The notes beneath the pieces are model-generated. The model saw only the letters and a list, made by a program, of their open reading frames with translations. It had not been told where the DNA came from and did no database searches. A DNA stretch of 64,000 nucleotides from Evansella sp. LMS18 (GTDB taxonomy: Bacteria > Bacillota > Bacilli > Bacillales > Salisediminibacteriaceae). The position numbers and the translations under genes are program-made. The stretch covers positions 4,216,001 to 4,280,000 of the forward strand of contig NZ_CP093301.1 of assembly GCF_024362785.1 (NCBI RefSeq), in the 5' to 3' direction. Shown here one piece after another: positions 1 to 62,172 of this stretch. The stretch's first letter is position 1. Each line of letters opens with the position of its first letter.

Positions 1-24
1 GCATGCTGCCTGGAATGAAAGTTT

Positions 25-1050
25 TTAAGTTGGTGATGATCTTTCATGAAGCCAATCAATCAGAAATTCCGGAAGTTTTCCTTTTACTGCTATAGTGACG
101 TGGCCGCCCCTGACTGTTTTAAAAGTTTTGTCTGTGCTCCCCGTCTTATCCATCATTGGCTGGCTCATTTCAGGAGGAACCAGTTCGTCATCTAATGCCG
201 AAACGATGAGGAGGCTTGATTTAATAGTGGAAAGTTGGACTTTTTCATTTTCTATCAGTAACTGGCCGTTCATTAATTTATTATTGATATACAGGTCACC
301 TATGATTTTTTTCAAGGCCGCCCCTGAGAAAGGGACATGGTCATTTGCCCAGTCGTTTATGGTGGACCATTTTTTCACGTAGTTTTCGTCGCCAGCCCGT
401 TTTAGAACGGACAGGTAAGAGGTGACTGTAATTGGCAGGGTAAGTGTTTTGATAAATGACTTTACACCGCTGGCAGGGATGAATTCCAGGGCATCAATAA
501 GTTCATCAACCGGAAGAGTTTTATTTTTAAAAGCACGATCCCACTTCTTCCATTTCATGCTTTCTTTAAAATCGATTGGCGGCGCAAACAGAACCAGGTT
601 TTTCACCGGTTCTTCAGCAACAGCAGCATAAATGGCAGCTAATGTTCCTCCGAGACAGTAACCGAGGACGCTGATCTGGTCTGCTTTTGAATGGAGCAAA
701 GCTCTTCTGACACCTTTTTGGATATGCTTTTTTATATAGTCATCGAGGGTGAGGTCTTTATCTTCATAGCCGAGGGCGCCGAAATCCAGCAAGTACACAT
801 CATAACCCTCTCTTGTAAAAGCATTTATCATACTCATTTCAGGAGAAAGATCAAGGATAGTAGGTTTATTTAATAATGAGTAGATTAAAAACAAAGGCGT
901 GCGGTATTTCCTTTGTTTTGGCGGATAATGCCAGAGGGTTGATTTATTCTTTTTCCAGACAGGTTGTCTCGAAGTTGAACCGGAAGAGGACCCTGTCAGT
1001 GGATGGGAAAAATCACGTTCCGTGTTGTTTCTCGACGGCTTATCACTCAA
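25..1050 (-). CDS. phaC: Class III/IV poly(3-hydroxyalkanoate) synthase subunit PhaC
   Basis: Alpha/beta-hydrolase-fold protein of 341 residues that should polymerise (R)-3-hydroxyacyl-CoA into polyester storage granules. The lipase-like box is GYCLGG with Cys132 in place of serine, as in PHA synthases; the other triad candidates are Asp287/288 (SALDDE) and His317 (RGGH). The length fits the short class III/IV catalytic subunits (about 350-360 residues). The start is TTG at 1050, overlapping the end of the upstream PhaR-like gene by 8 bp, so the two are translationally coupled. The N-terminal 40 residues are polar and low-complexity. Family assignment is firm; chain-length specificity cannot be read from the sequence. 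Confidence 0.88.
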   Translation of the reverse strand: MSDKPSRNNTERDFSHPLTGSSSGSTSRQPVWKKNKSTLWHYPPKQRKYRTPLFLIYSLLNKPTILDLSPEMSMINAFTREGYDVYLLDFGALGYEDKDLTLDDYIKKHIQKGVRRALLHSKADQISVLGYCLGGTLAAIYAAVAEEPVKNLVLFAPPIDFKESMKWKKWDRAFKNKTLPVDELIDALEFIPASGVKSFIKTLTLPITVTSYLSVLKRAGDENYVKKWSTINDWANDHVPFSGAALKKIIGDLYINNKLMNGQLLIENEKVQLSTIKSSLLIVSALDDELVPPEMSQPMMDKTGSTDKTFKTVRGGHVTIAVKGKLPEFLIDWLHERSSPT

Positions 1051-1612
1051 CTTTATTCAGCCTTTTCAAGAGGGATGCAGTAAGATTGGATAGGTCCTGG
1101 TCCTGTTGTAGGGAAAGACTCTTCAGAATTAAATCCCTTTGAAACTGTCTCAGCGGGTCGATATGTGTGGAGCGTTCGGTTGTGTGGTCAAATGACAGTT
1201 CATTGTCCTGCCCCTCATCTGTGGCTGCATCTTCAGATATATCTGCCGAATTTTCCCCCGAATCACTTTCCCCAGCGTGGCCGGCAGTTTCGGGCAGATC
1301 TTGTAATTTGTCAGCGAGCATTGCGAACTTTTCTTCCAGTGAATCAATCTTTTCCTCTACCTGGATATTCAGTTTAGCGATGTTGGCAACGTCATCTTTC
1401 GTAGGCAGATTCAGACGCAGAGCAACCATTTCACTTAATGACTTAATAAAACTTAATGCATTGGTTTGTTCTGTCATGAACTTCTTTGTCAGGCCGATTA
1501 GTTTTTTATCATCTAAAACAGCGCTAACAAGATCTTTAATATCCGTATCAGCATCCAACTTAGGAAGTTTAATAAGTTTGTCTAATTGAACTGTTTTCTT
1601 GGCAGGCATCAT
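1043..1612 (-). CDS. phaR: PhaR/PhaE-like accessory subunit of PHA synthase
   Basis: About 189 residues, hydrophilic, with a probable coiled coil in the middle (IQVEEKIDSLEEKFAMLADK) and an acidic Glu/Asp/Ser-rich stretch before a basic, leucine-rich C-terminus. It lies directly upstream of phaC and overlaps it by 8 bp, the arrangement of class IV PhaR-PhaC synthases, where the small subunit is needed for activity. Several ATGs follow a GAAAGG Shine-Dalgarno; the one at 1612 (or 1609) has normal spacing, whereas 1618 directly abuts it and the extension back to 1672 has no ribosome site. The call rests on context and general composition more than on a motif. Confidence 0.68.
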   Translation of the reverse strand: MMPAKKTVQLDKLIKLPKLDADTDIKDLVSAVLDDKKLIGLTKKFMTEQTNALSFIKSLSEMVALRLNLPTKDDVANIAKLNIQVEEKIDSLEEKFAMLADKLQDLPETAGHAGESDSGENSADISEDAATDEGQDNELSFDHTTERSTHIDPLRQFQRDLILKSLSLQQDQDLSNLTASLLKRLNKVE

Positions 1613-1706
1613 CGTCATCCTTTCATCAAATCTCAGTGGAAAATTCCTTGGTATAGTATATACTTTGTACAAACATCAGTGATGAAATTAGGTGCCTGTC
1701 ACCACC

Positions 1707-1740
1707 CGAAAAATCTTGTTTCACGGAACAAGATTTTTCG
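1707..1740. repeat. Long perfect hairpin next to a dispersed repeat
   Basis: Two 14-bp arms (CGAAAAATCTTGTT and its exact complement) surround a 6-base loop. The sequence just before it, GTGCCTGTCACCACCCG, recurs at about 8464-8480 beside another inverted repeat ending in TTTGTCG, so this is one member of a dispersed intergenic element. Confidence 0.7.
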
Positions 1741-1770
1741 ACAAGGATAGATAAGGAGATAGCTTTTAAA

Positions 1771-1806
1771 AAACAGCCAGGGAGGAGAGCTTCCTGGCTG
1801 TTTTTC
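1771..1806. terminator. Bidirectional rho-independent terminator
   Basis: AACAGCCAGG and CCTGGCTGTT form a GC-rich stem with a short loop. T-runs follow on the plus strand, and A-runs precede it (T-runs on the minus strand), so it can stop transcription both ways. It lies upstream of the phaRC pair and probably insulates it from a minus-strand neighbour. Confidence 0.75.
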
Positions 1807-1836
1807 ATTAAACCGGAAAGATTAGATATTTGAACT

Positions 1837-1993
1837 CTTGCATGCCCGCTTGGGAGGAAATAAAGCCAAAGCGGTAACGCGAGAGCGTCTTGCATGCCCG
1901 CTTGGGAGGAAATAAAGCCAAGCGGTAACGCAAGGGTGTCTCACGTACCTCGCTCGGGAGAAAGTAAAGATCGAGCGGTAACGCGAGAGCACT
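1837..1993. repeat. Three tandem copies of a 51-54 bp unit
   Basis: Copies lie at about 1837-1888, 1889-1939 and 1940-1993. Each follows the pattern cttgcatgcccgcttgggag, then gaaataaag, then a purine-rich stretch ending in gcggtaacgcgagag. Copies 1 and 2 are nearly identical; copy 3 is diverged. Conserved blocks are GGGAG.AA.TAAAG and AGCGGTAACGC. They form short reading frames by chance, but there is no ribosome-binding site. Confidence 0.85.
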
Positions 1994-2060
1994 TAGCATA
2001 GACGTTTTCTCCAGGCATCAACATGGATACAGTACCGATCCCCCCAATTGTTTAAGAAAA

Positions 2061-2079
2061 GGGACAGGTACGGTGTCCC
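2061..2079. repeat. GGGACAG-type dispersed element (with a partial copy at 2139-2154)
   Basis: The sequence GGGACAGGTACGGTGTCCC is an imperfect palindrome. A related half (ACCTGTCCCTCTGTCC) lies at 2139-2154, immediately after an orphan strong ribosome site (AGGAGGTG) and ATG at 2130 that opens only a 15-codon frame. Similar sequences occur near 8.4, 9.0, 9.4, 23.3 and 28.4 kb. Confidence 0.6.
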
Positions 2080-2200
2080 AGAAGATTTTTTATGTTTATT
2101 TATTTACATATTTCAGGAGGTGTTATTCAATGATCTCGACCTGTCCCTCTGTCCTATTTAATGTTATGATGAAATAACAAACAAATCATACTTAATTTTT

Positions 2201-2292
2201 CCACTAGGGGAGCCAGACCTGGCTGAGACTAACGCATTGCTTTAGACCCTTTGAACCTGAACTATGTAATGATAGCGGAGGGAAGTGGGCAT
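2201..2292 (+). promoter_or_regulatory. TPP riboswitch (THI box)
   Basis: The conserved blocks are present in order: CTAGGGGAGCC, then GGCTGAGA, then ACCCTTTGAACCTGA, then GATAGCGGAGGGAAGTGG. CCACT at 2201 can pair with AGTGG near 2284 to make P1. It lies 98 bases upstream of the LuxE-like gene, with an intrinsic terminator in between, so thiamine pyrophosphate should shut off the operon at 2390-8390 by transcription termination. Confidence 0.95.
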
Positions 2293-2337
2293 CATTTAAT
2301 CAGCTATTTTTCAATAGACTATAGATAAAATGGATGG

Positions 2338-2372
2338 CCGCTTTCAAGACAAGAAAGCGGTTTTTTATTTTT
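2338..2372 (+). terminator. Riboswitch-controlled terminator
   Basis: CCGCTTTC (2338-2345), a 7-base loop, and GAAAGCGG (2353-2360) are followed by TTTTTTATTTTT. It sits between the TPP aptamer and the ribosome-binding site AAAAGGAG of the first structural gene, the normal position for an expression-platform terminator. Confidence 0.88.
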
Positions 2373-2389
2373 AAAAGGAGTGGTTAGCA

Positions 2390-3508
2390 TTGTTGCCAGC
2401 TTATGAAGCGTTAAAACAGGAACTTATCACCTTTATAAATCAGCCTGGCGCCAGTGAGAATCAATTTAACGACATGGCGCTGAAAGTTTTTCAATTTCAA
2501 TATGAATACAACAAACCTTTCCGGAAGTTTTGTAGAAAACGTCGTGTGTCTCCAAGAACTGTCAAACACTTTTTGGATATTCCCCCTGTTCCCATGGATG
2601 CGTTTAAATTAACAACGTTATCAAGCCACCCGATTGAAGAAACAGAAGCAGTATTTATGACTAGCGGAACAACAGATCCCGCGAAACGGGGCAGGAATTA
2701 TCATCGGGACCTGGACACTTACGACATGTCCATGAAGACCTTTTTTAAGAAGGCGATTGTTCCGGATGTGGAAAAGATTAAAATGTATGTCCTTTTTCCA
2801 GAAGAGAACCTCATGCCTCATTCGTCATTGGCCCATTATTTGCATATAGCAAAGGAAACATTTGGCACAGAAGATAGTCTTTATGTTTTCTCCAAAGAAG
2901 AATTTCAAATAGAGAAACTCATTGAAGAACTATATGAAACGGAAAAAAAAGAGGAACCCATTTTATTAATCGGGGCGACTTTTTCTTTTATCCATTTATT
3001 AGACGAGTGCAATAAAAAGGACCTCCGCTTTCAATTGCCTTCAAAAAGCCGGTTGATGGATACAGGAGGAGCGAAAGGACGGTCCCGTGAAATGGAGCCG
3101 CAAACGTTTAAGGAAGAGATGGGCAGACTTTTTTCTGTGCCGGCTGAAAATTGCATAAATATGTATGGTATGACAGAATTAAGCTCTCAAATATATGATG
3201 GAAACTATTTGCATAATGAGCATGATTACTATAATCCAGCGAAATATGCCCCACATTGGGTGAGGACGGTAATTATGGATGTGGAATCAATGGAACAGAA
3301 ACCACCAGGAGAAAGAGGAATCATTGTACATTACGACTTAGCGAACTTAAATTCTGTTATGGGTGTTTTAACAGAAGATGCAGGTATGCAGGGGGAGCAA
3401 GGATTTTATTTGCTGGGGCGGGCAGTAGGAGCAGAAGCGAAAGGATGTTCGCTGGCTGTCGAACAATTTTTAAGGTCAGCTGGCCAGTCAAAGGGAGATA
3501 AAACATGA
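2390..3508 (+). CDS. LuxE-like acyl-protein synthetase (carboxylate activation)
   Basis: A 372-residue member of the ANL adenylate-forming superfamily that most resembles LuxE, the fatty-acyl-protein synthetase of bacterial luminescence. Visible motifs are TSGTT (91-95, ATP/AMP loop), DTGGAKGRSRE (224-234) and YGMTE (259-263). LuxE-type enzymes activate a carboxylate with ATP and pass the acyl group to a cysteine of the reductase partner. Here that partner is the next gene, overlapping by 4 bp. Start is TTG at 2390, 9 bases after AAAAGGAG. It is first in a TPP-riboswitch operon and no luciferase genes are nearby, so the substrate is probably thiamine-related rather than a luminescence fatty acid (inference). 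Confidence 0.85.
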   Translation: MLPAYEALKQELITFINQPGASENQFNDMALKVFQFQYEYNKPFRKFCRKRRVSPRTVKHFLDIPPVPMDAFKLTTLSSHPIEETEAVFMTSGTTDPAKRGRNYHRDLDTYDMSMKTFFKKAIVPDVEKIKMYVLFPEENLMPHSSLAHYLHIAKETFGTEDSLYVFSKEEFQIEKLIEELYETEKKEEPILLIGATFSFIHLLDECNKKDLRFQLPSKSRLMDTGGAKGRSREMEPQTFKEEMGRLFSVPAENCINMYGMTELSSQIYDGNYLHNEHDYYNPAKYAPHWVRTVIMDVESMEQKPPGERGIIVHYDLANLNSVMGVLTEDAGMQGEQGFYLLGRAVGAEAKGCSLAVEQFLRSAGQSKGDKT

Positions 3509-4980
3509 CGCTAAGTTATCCGTGTTATCATGTCCCCACTTCCTGCGTAGACGAGGTGGCTGGTGCCTCTTTTCATAAATTAGTGTTTGAGAACTGCGGG
3601 GAGAGAGCAGAGTTATCTGTGCCAATGCTCACTCCAGCTCTTATTGAACAAATCATGGACAAGCTGAAAGAGCAGCAAATGGAATATGTAAGCACTCTGC
3701 GGACAAATGATTTAATTGAAGTGTTTGATCAAGCGATAGAAAGATGGTTAGACCCTGAGTATGAATTAAGAAAGCTGGCGGAACAATTTTTGCCGGTCAT
3801 TACTGGTTATGACGGGGAAATGATCCGGTTATTTTTAAGTCGTTATTTACGCCAGTTCCGCAAAGTGAAATTGATGCGAATGATTGACGAGGACTTCGTC
3901 AATCCCCTTGTACTCGATGAGTTTCGTCCGAGGAAATCCGGAGGGCTCTATCGGGCGTACGGGCCTCCTGTAATTACCCATATTTTTTCTGGGAATGTGC
4001 CCGCGTTGCCCCTTTGGAGTTTATCCGCGGGAATCTTAATGAAATCAGCCTCGCTTGGAAAAGTTTCTTCCTCTGAACCGCTGTTTCCGGTATTGTTCGC
4101 AAAAACGATTGCTGACATAGACCCTCGTTTAGGAGATGCCTTGGCGGTATTATGGTGGAAAGGGGGAGATCAATCGATCGAAGAGGCAAGTTTCCGTTCC
4201 TCGCATGCAGTTATTGCTTATGGGGGAAAAGAAACGATTGATACAGTCAGGCGGAAAGTTCCTCCCCATGCCACCTTTCATGCCCACGGACATAAAGTAA
4301 GTTTTGGGGTATTGACGAAAGAATGCCTGCAGACGACGAAAGGCTGGCAAGCGGCTAAGCTGGCGGCGAAAGACACTTCATGGTTTGATCAGCAAGGGTG
4401 CCTCTCTCCACATGTCTTTTTTGTTGAGCGGGGAGGCGCGTATTCCCCCCGGGATTTCGCCCAGATGCTGGCAAATGAAATGGCAAACTTCCAGAAGAAA
4501 CATCCCCGCGCCAGTTTAACAGAGGAAGAGCAGCATGCCATTGTAAAACGAAGGACCTCGATTGAGTTTGAAGCTTTTGAAAAATCTTCTCTTGATCTGT
4601 TGAAAAGTGACGGCGGTACAGATTGGACGGTAGTGTATCGTGACGACATGGAAAATAACGAATTCCCTTTTTCTCCCCTTAATCGTTTTGTCACTGTAAT
4701 ACCTGTAGATCGTGTGGATGACATTAAAGGGTATCTTCATCATGTAGAAGGCTTCGTTCAGACAGCCGGTGTGGGCTGTGCTCCTCAATCATTCTCTTCT
4801 ATCATTGATTTGTTAGGAGAATTAGGAGTCAATCGAATTTGCGCCTTAGGGTCTATGCCACACCCTGAACCAGGATGGCATCATGACGGCCGGTTTCATT
4901 TAGCTGATCTCGTCCGTTATTGTGACGTGGAGTCCACATTAGAAGAACAAATAGATCTATTTGATGTATTCAGAGATTAA
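3505..4980 (+). CDS. LuxC-like acyl reductase (acyl-CoA/acyl-protein reductase)
   Basis: 491 residues, aldehyde-dehydrogenase superfamily, LuxC family. FSGNVPALPLWSL (161-173) is the characteristic nucleotide-site segment and Cys299 in DQQGCLSPH is the expected catalytic cysteine. LuxC enzymes reduce an activated acyl group to the aldehyde with NADPH. It overlaps the LuxE-like gene by 4 bp (ATGA), so the two products are made together, as in the fatty-acid-reductase complex. With the SDR at the operon's end, an acid could be taken to aldehyde and then to alcohol. Substrate unknown; TPP control points to a thiamine or pyrimidine/thiazole acid (inference). Confidence 0.87.
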   Translation: MTLSYPCYHVPTSCVDEVAGASFHKLVFENCGERAELSVPMLTPALIEQIMDKLKEQQMEYVSTLRTNDLIEVFDQAIERWLDPEYELRKLAEQFLPVITGYDGEMIRLFLSRYLRQFRKVKLMRMIDEDFVNPLVLDEFRPRKSGGLYRAYGPPVITHIFSGNVPALPLWSLSAGILMKSASLGKVSSSEPLFPVLFAKTIADIDPRLGDALAVLWWKGGDQSIEEASFRSSHAVIAYGGKETIDTVRRKVPPHATFHAHGHKVSFGVLTKECLQTTKGWQAAKLAAKDTSWFDQQGCLSPHVFFVERGGAYSPRDFAQMLANEMANFQKKHPRASLTEEEQHAIVKRRTSIEFEAFEKSSLDLLKSDGGTDWTVVYRDDMENNEFPFSPLNRFVTVIPVDRVDDIKGYLHHVEGFVQTAGVGCAPQSFSSIIDLLGELGVNRICALGSMPHPEPGWHHDGRFHLADLVRYCDVESTLEEQIDLFDVFRD

Positions 4981-4994
4981 GGGAAGTGACGAAG

Positions 4995-5753
4995 ATGTCG
5001 ATTATTACTTGTCAAGACGTTACCTTGCAATTTAAGCAAGATCATCCGCCTGTTCTCAATAACGTTAACCTGGAAATACACGAGGGGGAGTTCGTAAGCA
5101 TCATCGGGAAAAGTGGAAGTGGAAAAACAACTCTTCTGCAAATGATTGGCGGATTGCTCCTGCCGACAAAAGGAGAAATTACCGTGCTGGGACAGGCTGT
5201 TTCTGAGCCTCTTGATGAAATGACTTATGTTTTTCAAAGGGCTGTGCTTTTAGAATGGCGTAATGTGATAGAGAATGTGCTCATGCCAATTGAATTAGTA
5301 AGGAAACCAACTCAACAAGATATAACTAAAGCGATGGACGTGCTTGCAACCGTTGGGTTAGCTGGCCATCATACTAAGTATCCACATGAATTATCTGGCG
5401 GCATGATGTCCAGAGTCACACTGGCGAGAGCTTTTTTAATGGAGCCAAAAATTTTATTAATGGATGAACCTTTTTCAGCACTGGATGCGATGACTAAAGA
5501 ACAGCTTCAATTAGAATTAATGAAGCTGGCAAAAAAGTACAGGACTACAACAGTATTCATTACCCACGATATTGCGGAAGCGGCTTATCTCTCAGATCGC
5601 GTCATGTTGCTTGGAGGACAGCCGGCTGCGGTTGTGGAGGAAAAACAAGTTCCTTTTGCAAGGCCCAGAATAAAAGAGCTGAAGTTCGAGCCGCCGTTTA
5701 ATGCCATTGTCAAGGACTTGCATCACTCCATTGAAGGGGCAGGTGGTGTATAA
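4995..5753 (+). CDS. ABC importer ATP-binding protein, NitT/TauT (ThiZ-like)
   Basis: 252 residues with every ABC ATPase motif: Walker A GKSGSGKT (38-45), Q-loop Gln81, signature LSGGM (133-137), Walker B ILLMDEP (153-159), and a FITHD switch histidine. The sequence is typical of the nitrate/taurine/pyrimidine importer family. ATG 4995 is preferred: AAGGGA lies 10 bases upstream, while a GTG at 4986 is too close to it. It follows the LuxC-like gene by 14 bp and precedes its permease by 1 bp, so it should power the importer formed by the next two genes. Confidence 0.92.
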   Translation: MSIITCQDVTLQFKQDHPPVLNNVNLEIHEGEFVSIIGKSGSGKTTLLQMIGGLLLPTKGEITVLGQAVSEPLDEMTYVFQRAVLLEWRNVIENVLMPIELVRKPTQQDITKAMDVLATVGLAGHHTKYPHELSGGMMSRVTLARAFLMEPKILLMDEPFSALDAMTKEQLQLELMKLAKKYRTTTVFITHDIAEAAYLSDRVMLLGGQPAAVVEEKQVPFARPRIKELKFEPPFNAIVKDLHHSIEGAGGV

Positions 5754-5754
5754 A

Positions 5755-6522
5755 ATGAAAATGGCTAAAATCTACTCCTTTATGCTCTTTCTACTAATGC
5801 TTCTCATTTGGGAAGCGGTTGTCCAGCTAAAAGAGATACCGAAAATCATACTGCCGGCGCCAACTGCTATTGGCGCCAACATGGTGCAGCATTTTCAAAG
5901 TGGATATTTTTACCCTCATATTGCGGCAACTTCTATTGAAGTTTTCGGCGGTTTCTTTGCAGGGGCGATTCTTGGGATCGGCCTTGGATTTTTAGTTGCC
6001 CAGTCTAAGAGAACACAAGATATTATTCAGCCATATATCATTGCGTCACAGGCGATGCCAAAACTGGCTTTGGCGCCTCTTTTAGTATTGTGGTTTGGAT
6101 TTGGCTATACACCTAAAATCGTCATTGTGGCGCTCGTTTGTTTTTTTCCTTTATTTGAAAATACAGTGACAGGACTGTCCAATGTGAGCCGGGATAAACT
6201 GGCGTTATTTCACTCACTGAAAGCGACGCAAACTCAAACTCTGCTGAAGCTGAGGCTTCCATCCGCAATGCCGTATATCTTTTCCGGATTGCGTGTCGCA
6301 ATTGTACTGAGTGTGGTTGGCGCTGTAATTAGTGAATTTATCGGGGCGAATAAAGGGTTGGGGGCGCTCATCATTGCCTCTCAAGGAATGCTCGATACAA
6401 CTTTAATGTTCTCGGTATTCATTTTACTTACTGCGAAAGGAATTATCCTGTATCAATCGATTCATTGGATTGAGGCCGCTTTTTTTAAAAAATATAGTTA
6501 TTCCAGAGGAGAAATGAAATGA
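5755..6522 (+). CDS. ABC importer permease (ThiX-like)
   Basis: 255 residues with about six hydrophobic segments and the BPD_transp_1 cytoplasmic loop (EFIGANKGLGALI near 200-212, matching EAA...G..LG). The family transports nitrate, taurine, aliphatic sulfonates or thiamine pyrimidines. ATG 5755 is one base after the ATPase stop; an upstream in-frame extension to 5701 would overlap the ATPase by 53 bp and is not needed. It overlaps the binding-protein gene by 4 bp. Confidence 0.9.
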   Translation: MKMAKIYSFMLFLLMLLIWEAVVQLKEIPKIILPAPTAIGANMVQHFQSGYFYPHIAATSIEVFGGFFAGAILGIGLGFLVAQSKRTQDIIQPYIIASQAMPKLALAPLLVLWFGFGYTPKIVIVALVCFFPLFENTVTGLSNVSRDKLALFHSLKATQTQTLLKLRLPSAMPYIFSGLRVAIVLSVVGAVISEFIGANKGLGALIIASQGMLDTTLMFSVFILLTAKGIILYQSIHWIEAAFFKKYSYSRGEMK

Positions 6523-7604
6523 AACGATTTATGAAAACGGTTGGCGCGGTTTGTTTAATGGCTATGACGATAAGTATTGCCGGCTGCGGAGGAGCAGAAG
6601 AAGGGCAGAACCAAGAAGGAGTAACAGAAAACGAAGACGAGGCAACAGTAGAAGAAAAGGAAGTGCAGGAGGAAGCTGCCGGCGAGGACACAGCTGAAAG
6701 AATAAGGATGGCTTCCTGGAGCCAGCCGATTACGGAGCAGGCTAATATTTTTTTAGCAGAAGAAAAGGGCTGGTTTGAAAATGCGGGAATCGATTTCGAG
6801 TATATACCTGGAGCTGGAGGGGGAGACGCTGTACGTAACATTATTGCCGGAAACGCCGATATTGCTTTCGCAAATGTGGAAGCGGTTCTTTTAGCGCTTG
6901 AGCAAGGCGAGGAATTAAGGGTAATTTATAATATTTACCCTGAAAATGTGTTTAATTTAATTTCATTAAAAGAAAGCAATATAACGAGTATGGAAGATTT
7001 GCGGGGCGAAGATGTGGGAATATACAGCAGAAGCAGCGGGACGTATCAAAACCTCCTCGTCCTCCTGCACAAGGCAGGAATGACTGAAGATGATGTCAAC
7101 TTAATTGAGACCGGGGTGCTGAACTTTGGCCCATTGATGAATAAACAAGTGGCCGCAACAGCTGCGACAGACACAGGTTTGTTAGATGCCCAGCATAAAG
7201 GCTTAGGAGAAGTGGATGTCATCGAAGTAAAGGACGTTCTTAATACACCTGCAGATGTTTTTGTCGTGACAGAAAAAACGTTTCAGGAAAGGGAGGAAGC
7301 TCTCATTCGTTTTCTGCAAGTGTATCGTGACAGTACAGCCTATACGATGGAGCATCCGGAAGAAGCAGCTGAAATTGCTGTCACTGCAGCGATCGATGGC
7401 CAGGATAAAGAGAGAAATGTGGGGATTATCAACCTTCGCAATGAAACAGCAACGACCGAGGAAATTGCAGAAAAAGGTTTAGGCTGGCTTAACGAACATA
7501 TTCTTCAGGAAGTTGAAGAAACTTATTACGAATTAGGGCTTCTTAATGAAAGAGTAAATATCGAAACGATGACAACAAATGAATTAGTAGAACAATTAAA
7601 CTAA
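6519..7604 (+). CDS. NMT1/THI5-type substrate-binding lipoprotein (ThiY-like)
   Basis: 361 residues. The N-terminus is a lipoprotein signal with lipobox SIAGC, followed by a strongly acidic linker (about residues 26-60, Glu-rich) that should hold the receptor off the membrane. The mature domain (WSQPITEQANIFLAEEKGWF, GGGDAVRNIIAGNADIAFAN) is of the NMT1/THI5 periplasmic-binding type, whose known ligands include thiamine pyrimidine precursors such as formylaminopyrimidine (ThiY). With the TPP riboswitch upstream, a thiamine-related ligand is likely. Coupled by ATGA overlap to the permease. Exact ligand unknown. Confidence 0.88.
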   Translation: MKRFMKTVGAVCLMAMTISIAGCGGAEEGQNQEGVTENEDEATVEEKEVQEEAAGEDTAERIRMASWSQPITEQANIFLAEEKGWFENAGIDFEYIPGAGGGDAVRNIIAGNADIAFANVEAVLLALEQGEELRVIYNIYPENVFNLISLKESNITSMEDLRGEDVGIYSRSSGTYQNLLVLLHKAGMTEDDVNLIETGVLNFGPLMNKQVAATAATDTGLLDAQHKGLGEVDVIEVKDVLNTPADVFVVTEKTFQEREEALIRFLQVYRDSTAYTMEHPEEAAEIAVTAAIDGQDKERNVGIINLRNETATTEEIAEKGLGWLNEHILQEVEETYYELGLLNERVNIETMTTNELVEQLN

Positions 7605-7610
7605 GGTGAT

Positions 7611-8390
7611 ATGATGGATATAAATTTGCAACAAAAAGTTGTGCTGGTGACAGGGGCAAGCCGTGGGATTGGGGCTGCTATTGCAACGGGTTTTGCAAAA
7701 CAGGGAGCCGTAGTCATCATTAATTACTTGAAGAGTAAGGAAAAAGCGGAACAACATGCTGCTTACTTAATGGATACGTATAATATTGAAGCGATGGTTG
7801 TCCAGGGAGATGTAACGAACGAATCTGATGTGAAAGCGATGGTATCTGAAATTATTGCTGAATTTGACACGATTGACATAGCAGTCAATAACGCCTTACA
7901 TGGTTACACGTTTGATCCTGACAGGCGCAAGCTCGCCTGGGAGCTTGATTGGGAAGATTATCAATACCAGATAGATGGAGCTTTAAAAGGGACTTACAAT
8001 GTGTCTAAACACGTCATACCGTTTATGAAGGAAAGGAAGACAGGCAGGATCATCAATATGATCAGTAACTTAGTTTACCGGCCGGTCGTTCCTTATCATG
8101 ATTATAATACAGCGAAAGGTGCTGTCCTTGCATACTCCCAGAACATGGCAGCCGACCTTGGATCTTTCGGAATAACAGTTAATTGTGTTGCTCCCGGCCT
8201 AGTATACCCAACAGATGCAAGCCGAACGACAAAAGAGGAAGTGAAGGAGCTTATTATAAACGAAACGCCCTTGCACCGAATCGCTAAACCAGAAGACGTC
8301 GTTGGAAGTGTGTTGTTTTTTGCGAGCGGATGGTCAGGCTTTATAACCGGACAATGTATCGTCGTCGATGGAGGCTTTGTAATGAAATAA
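7611..8390 (+). CDS. Short-chain dehydrogenase/reductase closing the thiamine-regulated operon
   Basis: 259-residue classical SDR: NAD(P)-binding TGASRGIG (14-21), VNNA (92-95, with Leu-His in place of the usual Gly), catalytic Tyr165 and Lys169 (YNTAK) and a probable Ser152. ARG-type basic residues after the first strand are not evident, so NADP versus NAD is undecided. Ribosome site AAGGTGAT precedes two ATGs at 7611 and 7614; the gene starts 6 bp after the binding-protein stop. General annotation would be 3-oxoacyl-ACP reductase, but in this operon reduction of the aldehyde made by the LuxC-like enzyme to an alcohol is plausible (inference). Confidence 0.88.
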   Translation: MMDINLQQKVVLVTGASRGIGAAIATGFAKQGAVVIINYLKSKEKAEQHAAYLMDTYNIEAMVVQGDVTNESDVKAMVSEIIAEFDTIDIAVNNALHGYTFDPDRRKLAWELDWEDYQYQIDGALKGTYNVSKHVIPFMKERKTGRIINMISNLVYRPVVPYHDYNTAKGAVLAYSQNMAADLGSFGITVNCVAPGLVYPTDASRTTKEEVKELIINETPLHRIAKPEDVVGSVLFFASGWSGFITGQCIVVDGGFVMK

Positions 8391-8485
8391 CGGGACAAGG
8401 GGACGGATCCCTTGGTTTGTGAGTGAGTGGGACAATGACCCTGTCCCTCCGTCCCCCGACAAGTGCCTGTCACCACCCGGAATTT
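8391..8485. repeat. Composite GGGACAG / GTGCCTGTCACC dispersed repeat
   Basis: GGGACAAGGGGACGGATCCC is followed by GTGGGACAATGACCCTGTCCC and TCCGTCCCCCGACAAGTGCC, then TGTCACCACCCGGAATTTGTCG. The last part matches the element at 1691-1708, and a reverse-orientation copy lies near 28370. The element runs into the start of the Nudix gene. Confidence 0.65.
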
Positions 8486-8992
8486 GTCGAACTGTGTCAT
8501 GGGGCGAGGTGGGCGGTTAGAGCGGTTATCATTAGCGGCGGGAAAATTCTCATGCTACATACTAATAAAGGAGATTATAAGTTTCCAGGGGGAGGGGCTG
8601 AGAAAGGGGAGACACATGCAGCATGTCTAACCCGTGAAGTTGCAGAAGAAACAGGATATTTAAATGCTGCCGCCGGAGAGAAGGCAGGGGTTGTAATTGA
8701 ACGAAAGCTCGACGAATTTAAAACTGACACTGTTTTTCAGATGACTTCCCATTACTATTTTTGTGAAGTACCAGGGGAGAGGAGCCAGCAAAAACTGGTC
8801 GGTTATGAAGCTGAACAGGAATTCACCCCTGTATGGATATCAATCGAGGAAGCCATCAGGCAAAACGAAGCGGCCGCTAAGGAGCCAGGGCACAACGGCT
8901 GGATCCAGCGGGAAACCTTTGTAATGAAGGAGCTTCTGAATTTTGCTAGAGAAGAAAAAGGGGACAGGGCCGTTAACCCAGAGGGACAGTGA
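8423..8992 (+). CDS. Nudix hydrolase with repeat-derived ends
   Basis: 189 residues by the longest frame. The Nudix box is complete (GGGAEKGETHAACLTREVAE then ETGY, residues about 57-79), so it should hydrolyse a nucleoside diphosphate linked to another moiety; the substrate is not evident. The first 20 or so codons lie entirely in the dispersed repeat at 8391-8485 (possible GTG 8423 or ATG 8435) and the last codons (GDRAVNPEGQ) in another repeat at 8958-9000. There is no good ribosome-binding site. The conserved part begins near residue 22 (VELCHGARWAVRA). It may be an active gene with replaced ends or a slightly truncated one. Confidence 0.7.
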   Translation: MSGTMTLSLRPPTSACHHPEFVELCHGARWAVRAVIISGGKILMLHTNKGDYKFPGGGAEKGETHAACLTREVAEETGYLNAAAGEKAGVVIERKLDEFKTDTVFQMTSHYYFCEVPGERSQQKLVGYEAEQEFTPVWISIEEAIRQNEAAAKEPGHNGWIQRETFVMKELLNFAREEKGDRAVNPEGQ

Positions 8993-9000
8993 ACCTGTTA
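8958..9000. repeat. GGGACAG-type dispersed element
   Basis: GGGGACAGGGCCGTTAACCC is followed by AGAGGGACAGTGAACCTGTT. It overlaps the 3' end of the Nudix gene and supplies its stop codon. Confidence 0.55.
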
Positions 9001-9099
9001 CTGTGCTCCTAAAAATATTTTTTTGACCAGGCAATCTTCTCAATTATCCGCATATATTAGCTTTTGTGTGAACCAGTTAACAAACGAAGGGCAGGGCTA

Positions 9100-9240
9100 A
9101 TGATGGAGAATAAGAAACAGTTGTCTATACTTAAGGAAGAATTTAACGGGAGCGGCAACGGTTATAAAATTATTAATGAAGAAATAAAGGACCAGCCGGA
9201 AAACATATGGGCGGTATGCACTCCTGTAAAAACACAGTAA
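9100..9240 (+). CDS. Possible small protein, 46 residues
   Basis: An ATG pair at 9100/9103 follows GAAGGGCAGGGC and opens a 46-codon frame ending in TAA. The product is charged with no membrane segment (begins MMENKKQLSILKEEF, ends WAVCTPVKTQ). Codon use looks natural and the intact frame sits in an otherwise empty 450-bp gap, upstream of a terminator at 9342. I do not recognise it; it could be a degraded fragment. Confidence 0.4.
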   Translation: MMENKKQLSILKEEFNGSGNGYKIINEEIKDQPENIWAVCTPVKTQ

Positions 9241-9341
9241 ATTTCAATCACAAATATTACGGCCAGCATATAGCCAAGCACCAAGATTCGGCAACATATT
9301 TGAGTGAATAAGGCGGGACAATTAGGCATGAAAAGGGTGAA

Positions 9342-9372
9342 GCCTTACCGGATAGACGGTAAGGCCTCTTCT
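9342..9372 (+). terminator. Rho-independent terminator
   Basis: GCCTTACCG, 6-base loop, CGGTAAGGC, then CTCTTCTTTT. It follows the small frame at 9100 and faces the end of the minus-strand CPBP gene. Confidence 0.7.
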
Positions 9373-9447
9373 TTTGCAAGAAGGACAGGAGGACAATCCT
9401 TGTGTCCTCAGACCATTTTCAGCTAGTGCAGCCTGTCCCTCTGTCCC
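9373..9447. repeat. GGGACAG-type dispersed element
   Basis: AGAAGGACAGGAGGACAATC is followed within 50 bases by GCAGCCTGTCCCTCTGTCCC, making an imperfect inverted pair of the repeat seen at 2061, 8391 and 8958. It abuts the stop codon of the CPBP protease gene. Confidence 0.6.
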
Positions 9448-10317
9448 TTATAACGGCAGCACAGCAACGATAAACCCTATGGTTGAAACGGCATTACACA
9501 GACAGTGAAAAAGAATCGCTATGAATATGTTTTTCTTTTTCCATGCTAAATAATAAGCGGGGAAAAAGGCGATAATCCTGAACAAATTACTAAATGGAAG
9601 CCAGAAGTGGTACAAAGAAAATAATACCGTCACGATAAACGGGGTGTAATTCCCAAATCTGCTCAATTTTGACGTGAGGTAACCTCGGAAAAACAACTCT
9701 TCCACGATTGGACCGACAAAGACATTCAAAATAAAGAACATTACACAAGTAAACAGCAAAATGTTCCTCGAATAGTTTTGCAGATAATCAATATTCGTCC
9801 AGTCAAAATACGGAGGCAAGACATTAAACAGCCGATCAGAAACTGGTGCAAACAGCATATCTTCTAACGGGGCAATGGTGACACTCATAATACCGGCGAA
9901 TCCAAAAAGGAAAGCAGCATAGACGAAGATCTTCCACCAGGCTAATTTCTGGTGGTTGGCGAAAGCGCTTTTCCATGAATAATTGCCATACTCTTTCTTA
10001 CTTGCCCGTGCCACCACAAAAATCTGGAAGGGGAAAAGAATGAACATAGCCAACAGAAAAAATAGTAAAATGGTGGGAATGGAGTTTCCTAATACATAAC
10101 CTGCCAAAAGGTAGACCAGCGTTAAAACGGTTGTTGGCAGAAAAATAAGGAGAAGAACCTTCCCCATACTTAAGTTATTCCCCAGCTTTTTACTTCCTAT
10201 TTTCATCTGCCGGCCACGACCATCGGTAAGTGGAAAAACGGGAGTATCCTCATTCTTCATAATTTCCTCCAGTTGGTGATGGATATTTTTTATATACTCA
10301 AATTTAGAATAATCCAA
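9448..10317 (-). CDS. CPBP family intramembrane glutamic protease
   Basis: 289 residues from TTG 10317, or 270 from ATG 10260, which has an ideal GGAGG 5 bases upstream. Several transmembrane segments carry the three CPBP/Rce1 motifs: EELFFR (Glu206, Glu207, Arg211), a histidine in SLYHFW (His237) and HCLCN (His271). Family members cleave membrane-associated substrates and in Firmicutes often act in bacteriocin immunity or stress signalling. It stands alone on the minus strand, with no bacteriocin gene visible beside it. Confidence 0.85.
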   Translation of the reverse strand: MDYSKFEYIKNIHHQLEEIMKNEDTPVFPLTDGRGRQMKIGSKKLGNNLSMGKVLLLIFLPTTVLTLVYLLAGYVLGNSIPTILLFFLLAMFILFPFQIFVVARASKKEYGNYSWKSAFANHQKLAWWKIFVYAAFLFGFAGIMSVTIAPLEDMLFAPVSDRLFNVLPPYFDWTNIDYLQNYSRNILLFTCVMFFILNVFVGPIVEELFFRGYLTSKLSRFGNYTPFIVTVLFSLYHFWLPFSNLFRIIAFFPAYYLAWKKKNIFIAILFHCLCNAVSTIGFIVAVLPL

Positions 10318-10676
10318 CTAGGTCAGTGGAAGCTGGATGAAGTGTTACAATATTATGAAAAGAAGATACTTTTGTATTAATGAAGTTGTGAACGGATAAG
10401 AGAAGCGACTTTAGTAGGAAGGAGGAACGGATAACCTGTTCGGAAAAGCTTCCAGTGACCACGCTACTTCCAGGATCTAGAATCCCCTTTCTTTTAAAGT
10501 AGGCAATGTCTATCGATTTTAAAGGAAAGTATTCAAGAGTCCGGTTTATATTAGGATTAAAATGAGTGAAGGTGGGTTTAGCGCTTTTCCTCTAGGTATG
10601 TAACTTTTGTTGAGTTTGTTGAATATGTTGGCAGAAAATAGTAAAGTATAAGTAATAACGAAAGGGGGTAAGTAAT
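10318..10676. other. Intergenic region with no recognisable gene
   Basis: About 360 bases between the divergent CPBP and HTH genes. It must hold both promoters, but I see no clear operator, hairpin or ORF with a ribosome site. AAAGGGGGT at 10661-10669 is the ribosome site of the next gene. Confidence 0.5.
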
Positions 10677-11357
10677 GTGGCAAAGGTAGAACAAGAGCAA
10701 GAGTTGTTGTGGGATACGGTTAAACTTTTAGCTGAGCAAAAAGATTTTGATAAAGCGGAAGCTGTTTTGAAAGCAGCCATTGAAAAGTCTTTACATTACA
10801 TGGATATACCCGCATCAGCTGTCGCTGATTTTCGGTTCTATATACCAGATGATAAGTTATTAACATCCCGGAAGAATTTAGAGGCAAATTTACGAAAAAA
10901 GGATGACGATCCTTTATCGGTAAATTATTATGAAAAAATTATCGAATACATTGAAATGATAAGCGAATTTACGGATCAACCTGAAAAAGCGAAAAAGAAA
11001 ATACTAGCATATATTCTTTTGAATAAATCAAGGAAACGCGCTCGCCATAAGGTGAGAAGAGCGGCATTTGCAAAAAGTCCGATACCGGTGAAGCTTATTA
11101 CGGGAAAAGGCCCAGAAAAAATATTCTACACAACAACGGAAGCTGCACAAACACTAGGTTTTAGTGATCAAACAATCCGAAGAATGTGCGAAAGCGGAAA
11201 AATAAAAGGGGCCAGCCGTTCTGAAGGCGGGCACTGGAGAATCCCTGTCGAATACTTCGCTACAACAAGAGAACAAGATAGAAAAGCAGAGAACATTTTA
11301 ACGCATCTTGATAAAAGAAACAAAGAGGCGGGGGATGCAGATGAGTTCGATCTTTAA
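10677..11357 (+). CDS. HTH antitoxin-like protein paired with a PIN toxin
   Basis: 226 residues from GTG 10677, preceded by AAAGGGGG. The C-terminal third is an excisionase/MerR-type helix-turn-helix (YTTTEAAQTLGFSDQTIRRM then CESGKIKG, about 150-195) with an RSEGGHWRIP wing. The N-terminal 130 residues are helical and charged. Its end overlaps the start of the PIN-domain gene, the layout of HTH-antitoxin/PIN-toxin operons, where the HTH protein neutralises the toxin and represses the operon. This copy is intact although the toxin is broken. A truncated paralogue lies at 28497-28933. Confidence 0.75.
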   Translation: MAKVEQEQELLWDTVKLLAEQKDFDKAEAVLKAAIEKSLHYMDIPASAVADFRFYIPDDKLLTSRKNLEANLRKKDDDPLSVNYYEKIIEYIEMISEFTDQPEKAKKKILAYILLNKSRKRARHKVRRAAFAKSPIPVKLITGKGPEKIFYTTTEAAQTLGFSDQTIRRMCESGKIKGASRSEGGHWRIPVEYFATTREQDRKAENILTHLDKRNKEAGDADEFDL

Positions 11358-11949
11358 TACAGAGCAGCATCCCCCGAGAGCATTTCTGGATACAACTGTT
11401 TTATGTGGTGCCATAAGAAAGGATGGAATTAATCGTAAAATCATACAAGCTGCTCGATTACCAGGGATTTATCAACATATTCTCTCCCGTGTCTGTTAAT
11501 TCGAATTCTTAAAGAATGCGTATAATGGTATTGGTAAAGGTGAAAAAATGATCAAATATACGCCATAGGAAGTTGATTACTTTTTAAATGATTTTGTATA
11601 CCCTGTTTTAGAGTATTATAACGAATTACCGGTCAACAGCGTTGTTGGTCGATACAGCCTCGAAACAAGACATCGTGATAACCGCCCAATAGGTGATGTT
11701 TTAGTTGAATTAACTGGATTAACCGATGAGGAAGCAGAGAAACTAGCCATAGAAAATACAACTGAAATGTCCATACCTCTAAAAAGGTTTGACCAGGAAG
11801 ATTTCCATGTATGGTCAACTGCAATCCAACAAGAATGCAACTACATAATAACAAGTAACACCCGCCGCTTCCCTGCTGCAATTGGCAGGATCGAAAGGAT
11901 TCATCCAACTGATTTTTATAGACAATTAGAGGATTACCTATATTCCTAG
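11335..11949 (+). pseudogene. PIN-domain toxin gene broken by two in-frame stops
   Basis: A single reading frame from ATG 11335 (or 11341) to TAG 11949 encodes a PIN-family ribonuclease-like protein: RAFLDTTVLCGAI with the first acidic residue at the N-terminus and ITSNTRRFP near the C-terminus. It is interrupted by TAA at 11497-11499 and TAG at 11566-11568 in the same frame, so substitutions rather than frameshifts killed it. The second copy near 28.9 kb reads CTTA where this one has TTAA, showing the ancestral codon was leucine. It overlaps the antitoxin gene. Confidence 0.8.
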
Positions 11950-12145
11950 TTTGATAGATGACTAGCCACCTTTGTTAAAAGGGGCTTTTGTTTGAGGGGA
12001 TTTGTAAAACAATATCTTTATCGACCAGGTATATTTCTCGGAAAAAACGAAAGAGCCAAGGACAGAATGCAACAAGGCTGTTCTCCCTACATTCAATTTT
12101 TCCAAAAATAGAGTAAAATTGTCTGTAAGAAAGCGGGGAATTCAT

Positions 12146-13009
12146 ATGAGTTATGAAGAATCGATGAATGAGGTTATGAAAAAAAGAAGTTCAATCAGGA
12201 CATTTGATACGAAACCTTTAACGGAACAAGATGAGGAAATCATAAAAGAATACATAAACAACGAGGACAATTTGATTGGTCCATTCGGCAATAAAGGGAA
12301 GATGGAATACGTGAAGGTCACAAAAAATGTGACTGGTAAAGGGATCAAGATTGGTACATATGGCTTCATTAAAAATCCCCAGGCATATTTGGTGGGCTTC
12401 TGTGCCAACAACAAATATTCCATTGTTGAATTCGGTCATACTTTTCATAAACTCGTCTTATTTTTGACGGCCAGGGGAATCGGAACATGCTGGATGGGCG
12501 GGACGTTCAGCAGGAAATCGTTTGAGAGTGAGCTGTCTATCAGAGACGGGGAATTCATTCCCTGTGTGACACCTGCAGGCTATCCGAAAGAGAAAAAGCG
12601 GGTATTTGACAGAGCGCTGCGGTATGCCGTAAAAGCCGACCGTAAAAAGGCATGGGATCAGCTGTTTTATGACAGGGAAATCGGCACAGCCCTAACACCG
12701 GAAAACTCAGGGCGATATAAAACACCGATTGAAATGGTACGGATCGGCCCGTCCGCATCCAATAAGCAGCCTTGGCGGGTAGTCCTTGAGGAAGACCGTA
12801 AAACATGCCATTTCTATATTGAACATACACCGAATTACAGCACTTCTTTCGGTTATGACATGCAGCTTCTGGATTTAGGCATCGCTATGTGCCAGTTTGA
12901 ATTGGCTTGCAGGGAGCTGGAGATTAACGGTAAATGGGTGATTGAAGACCCAGCCCTCAAGCTTCCAAATGAGCAGACGGAGTATATTGTGACGTGGAAA
13001 GGTGAGTGA
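12146..13009 (+). CDS. Nitroreductase-family flavoprotein (TM1586 type)
   Basis: 287 residues from ATG 12146, behind GCGGGGAATTC; the upstream TTG at 12119 lacks a ribosome site. The N-terminus (MKKRSSIRTF) is the FMN-binding start of nitroreductases, RIGPSASNKQPWRV near 200 is a second cofactor-site segment, and GTCWMGG (about 120) is typical. The two-half layout fits the TM1586-like subfamily. Function in the cell is unknown; members reduce nitro compounds or quinones with NAD(P)H. Monocistronic, with a terminator at 13036. Confidence 0.82.
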   Translation: MSYEESMNEVMKKRSSIRTFDTKPLTEQDEEIIKEYINNEDNLIGPFGNKGKMEYVKVTKNVTGKGIKIGTYGFIKNPQAYLVGFCANNKYSIVEFGHTFHKLVLFLTARGIGTCWMGGTFSRKSFESELSIRDGEFIPCVTPAGYPKEKKRVFDRALRYAVKADRKKAWDQLFYDREIGTALTPENSGRYKTPIEMVRIGPSASNKQPWRVVLEEDRKTCHFYIEHTPNYSTSFGYDMQLLDLGIAMCQFELACRELEINGKWVIEDPALKLPNEQTEYIVTWKGE

Positions 13010-61800: not shown

Positions 61801-62172
61801 TTGCAGATCTATTAAAGTCATTCAAAAGAAGAGTGGAACCAGCATTTGATTCCCTTAAACACATTACTGAAAACAATTTGTTGAAATACAATGTTTGGAT
61901 GATATACTAATTACAAACTAAATCATGTTTTTCATATAATCGCGGGGATATGGCCTGCAAGTTTCTACCAGTTTACCGGAAATAAACTGACTATGGAAAG
62001 CGAGTACGGATAACATTCAGACGGATGTTTTATAATATCGAACTCTACAGCTCGAAGTACATGCTTTTTACATAGTAAAGCGTGTGCTTCGAGTTTTTTC
62101 GTAGATTACATGAAAGATACATGGTTAGTGGGTACTATAATTATTCTATACATAGAAGGAAGGAAGTAAAAA
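61801..62172. other. Intergenic region with a terminator before ade
   Basis: Holds a short decayed frame on the plus strand (SFKRRVEPAFDSLKHITENN, about 61821-61910), which I cannot place, and a terminator at 62052-62100. No purine riboswitch motif was found before the adenine deaminase gene. Confidence 0.5.
62052..62100. terminator. Rho-independent terminator
   Basis: CTCGAAGTACATGCTTT and AAAGCGTGTGCTTCGAG pair with two G:U positions, then TTTTTT. It isolates the adenine deaminase gene from upstream transcription. Confidence 0.8.

Follow-up and report, generated by a model that had tools for sequence, protein, structure and literature searches.

The reduction of carboxylic acids by luminescence-type enzymes, the import of thiamin (vitamin B1) precursors and the control of genes by thiamin pyrophosphate (TPP) riboswitches are familiar from separate systems, and appear to come together in an operon of Evansella sp. 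LMS18 located in the window analysed here, i.e. the whole stretch of 64,000 nucleotides at positions 4,216,001 to 4,280,000 of contig NZ_CP093301.1 (assembly GCF_024362785.1, forward strand). LuxC and LuxE together make up a fatty acid reductase complex (PDB 7xc6). The acyl group is carried on cysteines of the two proteins, and the characterised proteins reduce long-chain acids. The ThiXYZ importer of formylaminopyrimidine (FAMP), found with TenA, combines ATP-binding cassette (ABC) components with the NMT1/THI5-type binding protein ThiY (PDB 3ix1), features TPP riboswitches and is associated with hydrolases. The ThiW-ThiM and CytX-ThiD-ThiE-ThiM salvage operons import ready-made alcohols, and a passage of PMC5874261 reports that CytX clusters with thiD, thiE and thiM.

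The Evansella operon resembles each of these systems in part. With 7xc6 it shares the two superfamilies, the adjacency of both genes and the alignment of both cysteines, and the same chemistry is expected; on the other hand, it falls far below the luminescence cut-offs, has no luxAB alongside, and adds TPP control, a transporter and a short-chain dehydrogenase/reductase (SDR). An NMT1/THI5-type binding protein, ABC parts and a TPP riboswitch recall ThiXYZ/TenA, although the binding protein is only 17% identical to ThiY, its W-x2-N-x2-H stretch is changed, and reductases take the place of hydrolases. The ThiW-ThiM and CytX-type operons belong to the same regulon and in several loci share one operon with the cassette, but the LuxE-LuxC-SDR cassette would start from an acid and restore the alcohol. 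The operon is quite probably a TPP-repressed, horizontally mobile salvage cassette for a thiamin-related carboxylic acid, which would be converted via the aldehyde to the alcohol, whichever acid is concerned. Moreover, it probably represents an undescribed thiamin-salvage route, in which oxidised thiamin pieces would be imported and passed through a LuxE-LuxC-SDR relay encoded on a mobile cassette under TPP control, whose transporters are interchangeable, in Bacillota as well as Proteobacteria. No published description of a TPP-controlled LuxE-LuxC-SDR operon was found in the open-access literature, where absence is no proof.

A TPP riboswitch upstream of six coupled genes

The aptamer (2196-2300, forward strand) scores 72.1 bits with the sequence and structure model RF00059, against a gathering score of 54.3 bits. 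It is followed on the same strand by an intrinsic terminator as the expression platform (2336-2372), whose 10-pair stem (2336-2362) precedes a T run and is also present in the predicted fold; terminator-like sites between 1990 and 8700 number 15, compared with 5.9 expected from shuffles. A set of three direct repeats, imperfect and some 50 bases long each, was recognised by eye further upstream (about 1840-1990).

Six genes follow on the forward strand. The first encodes a LuxE-like acid-activating enzyme of 372 amino acids (2390-3508; PF04443, 82.2 bits) and the second a LuxC-like acyl reductase of 491 amino acids (3505-4980; PF05893, 323.3 bits), matching LuxE and LuxC of 7xc6, respectively. 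The ATPase (4986-5753; PF00005, 109.8 bits) and the permease (5755-6522; PF00528, 104.4 bits) of an ABC importer precede the NMT1/THI5-type substrate-binding protein (6519-7604; PF09084, 154.6 bits) and, finally, the SDR (7614-8390; PF13561, 186.4 bits). Two start codons were picked by comparison with relatives, that of the permease at 5755 instead of the mechanical 5701 and that of the SDR at 7614 instead of 7611. LuxE shares 4 bases with LuxC, as does the permease gene with that of the binding protein, and since the remaining gaps measure 1-9 bases, the six genes likely form a single operon. These profile matches agree with the sequence-only reading, which had named a canonical TPP aptamer and terminator ahead of the same six coupled genes and had noted that luxAB was not present. 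Indeed, no luxAB-like gene, and hence no lux operon combining luxA and luxB with luxC and luxE, was recognised among the open reading frames listed for window positions 1-13000, the part of the genome that was searched. A Nudix gene (8423-8992) was considered as a seventh member and rejected, as no BLAST match was obtained in nine loci of relatives (L014-L022), though a Nudix-like reading frame does follow the SDR in L128 (10540-11172, by eye).

Conservation of the cassette in relatives

A protein search of named genomes yielded nine loci, all of which feature the aptamer and the six genes in order, with LuxC identity as low as 40% in Paenibacillus daejeonensis. Searches with the LuxC profile covered 299 genomes of the order (12 matched), 398 of the phylum (5 matched), 398 of the class (11 matched) and 82 from the class of genome G422 (6 matched). 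These counts overlap, as the own genome is included in three of the four and G422 in two. After removal of duplicates (L035 and L036 are the same as L017 and L018) and of G575, a weak match of the phylum search in an unrelated setting, 36 loci remained besides the window. LuxE and LuxC are adjacent in all 36, and the SDR follows in all 35 complete loci, L136 stopping at a contig end. The transporter is more variable: the ABC trio stands between LuxC and SDR in 26 loci, an NCS2 permease upstream of LuxE in six (two confirmed as PF00860, the remainder by similarity), three loci lack an adjacent transporter and one is cut.

A TPP aptamer precedes the cassette at all 36 loci, in 29 cases over the Rfam cut-off. 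Three aptamers lie just below 54.3 bits (L037 at 53.1, L038 at 53.9 and L041 at 49.5, scored on the shorter same-place loci L026, L027 and L030), and detection of the other four (L127, L129, L130 and L136) required R1, a model of our own that derives from 20 sibling aptamers, has 10 base pairs and rests mostly on sequence. At L044 and L128 the aptamer heads a longer thi operon. Of 15 leaders scanned without a shuffled control, 12 show a hairpin behind the aptamer that ends at a T run, L018, L019 and L081 being unconvincing. LuxC and LuxE genes downstream of TPP riboswitches are therefore common to all 36 loci, and a gene order confined to one strain, which would have spoken against the sequence-only reading, is excluded. 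Two further aptamers were observed in these genomes: in the segment 14660-15429 of L135, a second one (83.2 bits), divergent from the cassette, precedes a membrane protein that by eye is YkoE-like and has no match in NCBIfam; the one at L057 of genome G293 precedes an amino-acid-type ABC importer (by eye), an unusual target.

Shared operons with thiamin genes

In six of the 36 loci, and likewise on one plasmid, the cassette stands in a same-strand row with thi genes, operon membership in relatives being judged by strand and spacing. The rows comprise thiF-thiE-thiS-thiG-thiO in L022 (where thiD, 362 bases further on, may be separate), thiS-thiG-thiH-like-thiF in L082 and tenI-thiO-thiS-thiG-thiF in L128. 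In L043, thiW precedes the cassette and thiM-thiD-thiE follow it, while thiM-thiD-thiE precede it in L044; the partner is thiM in L130 and thiW on the plasmid L141. No thiC or tenA match was present in the rows of the 36 loci. Two further loci have thi genes nearby: at L081 the cassette follows a thiM-thiE-thiD row with its own aptamer in between, and at L052 LuxE-LuxC-SDR and a subsequent AIRS-ThiN fusion are divergent from thiD-thiM-thiE. The fusion itself (7826-9379), directly after the SDR, joins AIR (aminoimidazole ribonucleotide)-synthase-type and ThiN domains in one protein.

The host genome, a single contig of 4.9 Mb, contains seven TPP aptamers, the other six of which precede tenI-thiO-thiS-thiG-thiF-SDR, thiC, thiW-thiM-thiD, two tenA-like genes and another NMT1-type binding protein; thiM, thiC and thiG were confirmed by family searches and the other genes named by reading the sequences. 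With these ordinary TPP-controlled genes the host is probably able to make thiamin, and the operon appears to be an additional route. The SDR that ends the host's thiazole operon (SDR2; L008, 4720-5517) is 45% identical to that of the cassette. As proof of a thiazole substrate it was given little weight, because no match occurred in 20 ThiG neighbourhoods from other carriers. Furthermore, no annotated thi gene stood beside SDR2 homologues in three plasmids examined of 18 records, and no thi gene match was found in 16 stretches taken for SDR2 by guessed synteny in four family relatives, one of which (L155) contains a TPP aptamer.

Enzymes and binding protein

LuxE and LuxC are both superfamily members, with scores well above the gathering thresholds of PF04443 (24.9 bits) and PF05893 (21 bits). 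The C-terminal Cys353 of LuxE is conserved in 37 of 37 aligned sequences and Cys299 of LuxC in 36 of 37, the sole exception being L136, cut by the contig end. The alignment to 7xc6 extends through the active-site cysteine in LuxC and up to the C-terminal GCSL stretch in LuxE. In contrast, the curated bioluminescence equivalogs are missed by a wide margin, as LuxE reaches 56.4 of 550 bits (NF052244) and LuxC 110.1 of 750 bits (NF052251), and both are classed by sequence as superfamily members rather than luminescence enzymes. The SDR retains Tyr164 and Lys168 in 36 of 36 sequences and comes close to the cut-off of NF006393, a family named for 3-oxoacyl reductases, with 290 of 292 bits (298 bits in L045 and 304 in L128). 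The name oarX, given to a TPP-regulated SDR, was not found in the open-access literature.

The binding protein belongs to the NMT1/THI5 type by profile (154.6 bits against a threshold of 20.5) and by fold. Its model (pLDDT 83.4, residues 1-56 disordered) was closest to the thiamin-bound structure 4nmy and second closest to ThiY in Foldseek, at 17-19% identity, which is too low for a transfer of the ligand. The W-x2-N-x2-H stretch, present in 4nmy and in the TPP-controlled proteins of L013 and L063, lacks its His in 18 of 18 and its Asn in 17 of 18 cassette binding proteins; it may define pyrimidine-binding proteins.

Proposed pathway and candidate substrates

At low TPP, the riboswitch would let transcription through and the ABC importer, replaced elsewhere by an NCS2 permease, would take up a thiamin-related carboxylic acid. 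LuxE would use ATP to turn the acid into an acyl thioester, from which LuxC would form the aldehyde, and the SDR would finally yield an alcohol used by the ordinary thiamin kinases. That such an acid is imported and reduced had been proposed by the sequence-only reading, and this general scheme is well supported by the distant conservation, the thi operons and the conserved cysteines, while its choice of acids is left with evidence split between thiazole and pyrimidine. The operon itself is real, widespread, apparently mobile and presumably dedicated to TPP-controlled acid reduction, with thiamin-precursor salvage as the most likely purpose. If so, acid reduction would join the bacterial ways of recovering vitamin B1 pieces, a clade of 'acyl-CoA reductase' genes annotated after light-producing relatives would acquire a function, and oxidised thiamin acids would have to occur often enough in fermented food, soil and alkaline habitats to repay a mobile operon. 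Since few acids can be named, the scheme is directly testable.

The leading candidate is 4-methylthiazole-5-acetic acid, which would give hydroxyethylthiazole (HET) for ThiM; this assignment is tentative, and ranks slightly ahead of the pyrimidine acid, with thiamin acetic acid third. The pyrimidine carboxylate is a thiamin metabolite of mammals. The same applies to 4-methylthiazole-5-acetic acid according to a title in the reference list of PMC4515825. In favour of the thiazole acid, four rows (L082, L128, L130 and L141) contain thiazole-related partners only (thiS/G/F, thiM or thiW), while none contains thiD only. This reasoning is loose, as the thiazole operon of Bacillus subtilis includes tenA, a gene of pyrimidine salvage. 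In addition, ThiM occurs in 12 of 12 carriers but in 214 of 287 non-carriers of the order sample (Fisher p 0.03, not corrected for kinship), and in G422, devoid of ThiC and ThiG matches but with a gene for CytX, of a transporter family for hydroxymethylpyrimidine (HMP), at another aptamer, a thiazole source would complete the needs of the cell. Among the carriers tested, a set preceding the ten added by the 398-genome class search, ThiM was matched in 25 of 27, ThiC in 21 of 27 and ThiG in 19 of 22. Absent de novo genes were also tried as a guide to the ligand and do not settle it, ThiC and ThiG being both unmatched in three tested carriers and ThiC only in G176; in G719 and G723 the search covered ThiC and gave no match.

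Several observations weigh against the thiazole acid. Two of the 27 carriers, P. daejeonensis (G696) and the fragmented draft G695, have no ThiM match, so that HET would be useless there unless the assemblies are incomplete. A thiazole source would be redundant where the operon contains thiazole-making genes (L022, L082 and L128), and the host itself appears to make both thiamin moieties, so that any benefit of the cassette there is putative. G293, which lacks ThiC and ThiG matches but has thiW at another aptamer, would rather need a pyrimidine source, and the binding protein is structurally nearest to thiamin- and pyrimidine-binding proteins.

A less likely reading, but the strongest alternative, is the same mechanism acting on 4-amino-2-methylpyrimidine-5-carboxylate, which would yield HMP for ThiD. 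HMP would complete thiamin in P. daejeonensis, where ThiM is unmatched and the cassette stands with thiazole-making genes, thiE and thiD (beyond the 362-base gap); likewise, the cassette of G716 lies beside thiS-thiG-thiF, though this genome has three ThiC matches, and G176 possesses ThiG but no ThiC match. The resemblance of the binding protein to thiamin- and FAMP-binding folds fits as well, as does the replacement of the ABC importer by NCS2 permeases, a family known for nucleobase-sized solutes. The altered W-x2-N-x2-H stretch speaks against a pyrimidine ligand, its contact with the pyrimidine being putative, and so does the fact that a pyrimidine-specific partner never occurs without thiazole-related ones in any operon.

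Reduction of thiamin acetic acid to thiamin is improbable: the closest solved structure of a binding protein is thiamin-bound, ThiM, ThiD and ThiE would not be needed, and the acid is a thiamin metabolite of the rat by a title in the reference list of PMC7575681, but in 6 of 36 loci the ABC importer gives way to an NCS2 permease, of the family known for nucleobase-sized solutes, and the operon partners are precursor genes. Even less probable is incidental TPP control of a LuxE and LuxC that act on an acid unrelated to thiamin, such as a long-chain fatty acid, a reading which the NCBIfam family names and the characterised homologues would favour, because of the low bioluminescence scores, the aptamers at all 36 loci and nine plasmids of the LuxC clade from Bacillota to Proteobacteria, and the distant LuxC/LuxE pair L053 (27% and 25% identity), which lacks an aptamer over the cut-off as well as any nearby thi match. 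The surroundings of L053 look like a biosynthetic cluster by eye.

Plasmids and apparent horizontal transfer

LuxC matches 30 plasmid records, 27 of them over at least 80% of its length. Nine were examined, from Pantoea dispersa, Pantoea sp. SO10, Priestia megaterium, Niallia taxi, Azospirillum ramasamyi, A. lipoferum, Lactiplantibacillus plantarum (10.3 kb), Levilactobacillus brevis (21 kb, mobilizable) and Pseudomonas silvicola. LuxE-, LuxC- and SDR-like genes occur together in eight, by annotation or similarity; in P. silvicola, examined for LuxC, the match is in two pieces with no feature annotated beneath it. An R1 match lies upstream of LuxC in all nine plasmids, full-length in P. dispersa, Priestia, Niallia (two), L. 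plantarum and L. brevis, and restricted to a 3' core of 36-38 bases in the remaining four (E-values 1e-5 to 5e-5). The L. plantarum and L. brevis plasmids share the same four protein accessions. In a quick tree of LuxC, printed without support values, NCS2-linked genes of different classes cluster with the lactobacillus plasmid, and members of one family and of one genus (f54 and g461) are split over different branches. Such groupings suggest that the LuxE-LuxC-SDR unit was transferred as a cassette. The Niallia taxi megaplasmid (L141) presents two aptamers in tandem (4582-4879) before thiW-NCS2-LuxE-LuxC-SDR.

Other features of the window

On the reverse strand, two genes at 25-1672 weakly resemble subunits of polyhydroxyalkanoate synthase, PhaC and PhaR; their scores of 255 and 33 bits stay under the curated cut-offs of 365 and 148 bits, respectively. 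Near the opposite end of the window, a purine riboswitch (RF00167, 82.9 bits) is located at 61912-62013 on the forward strand.

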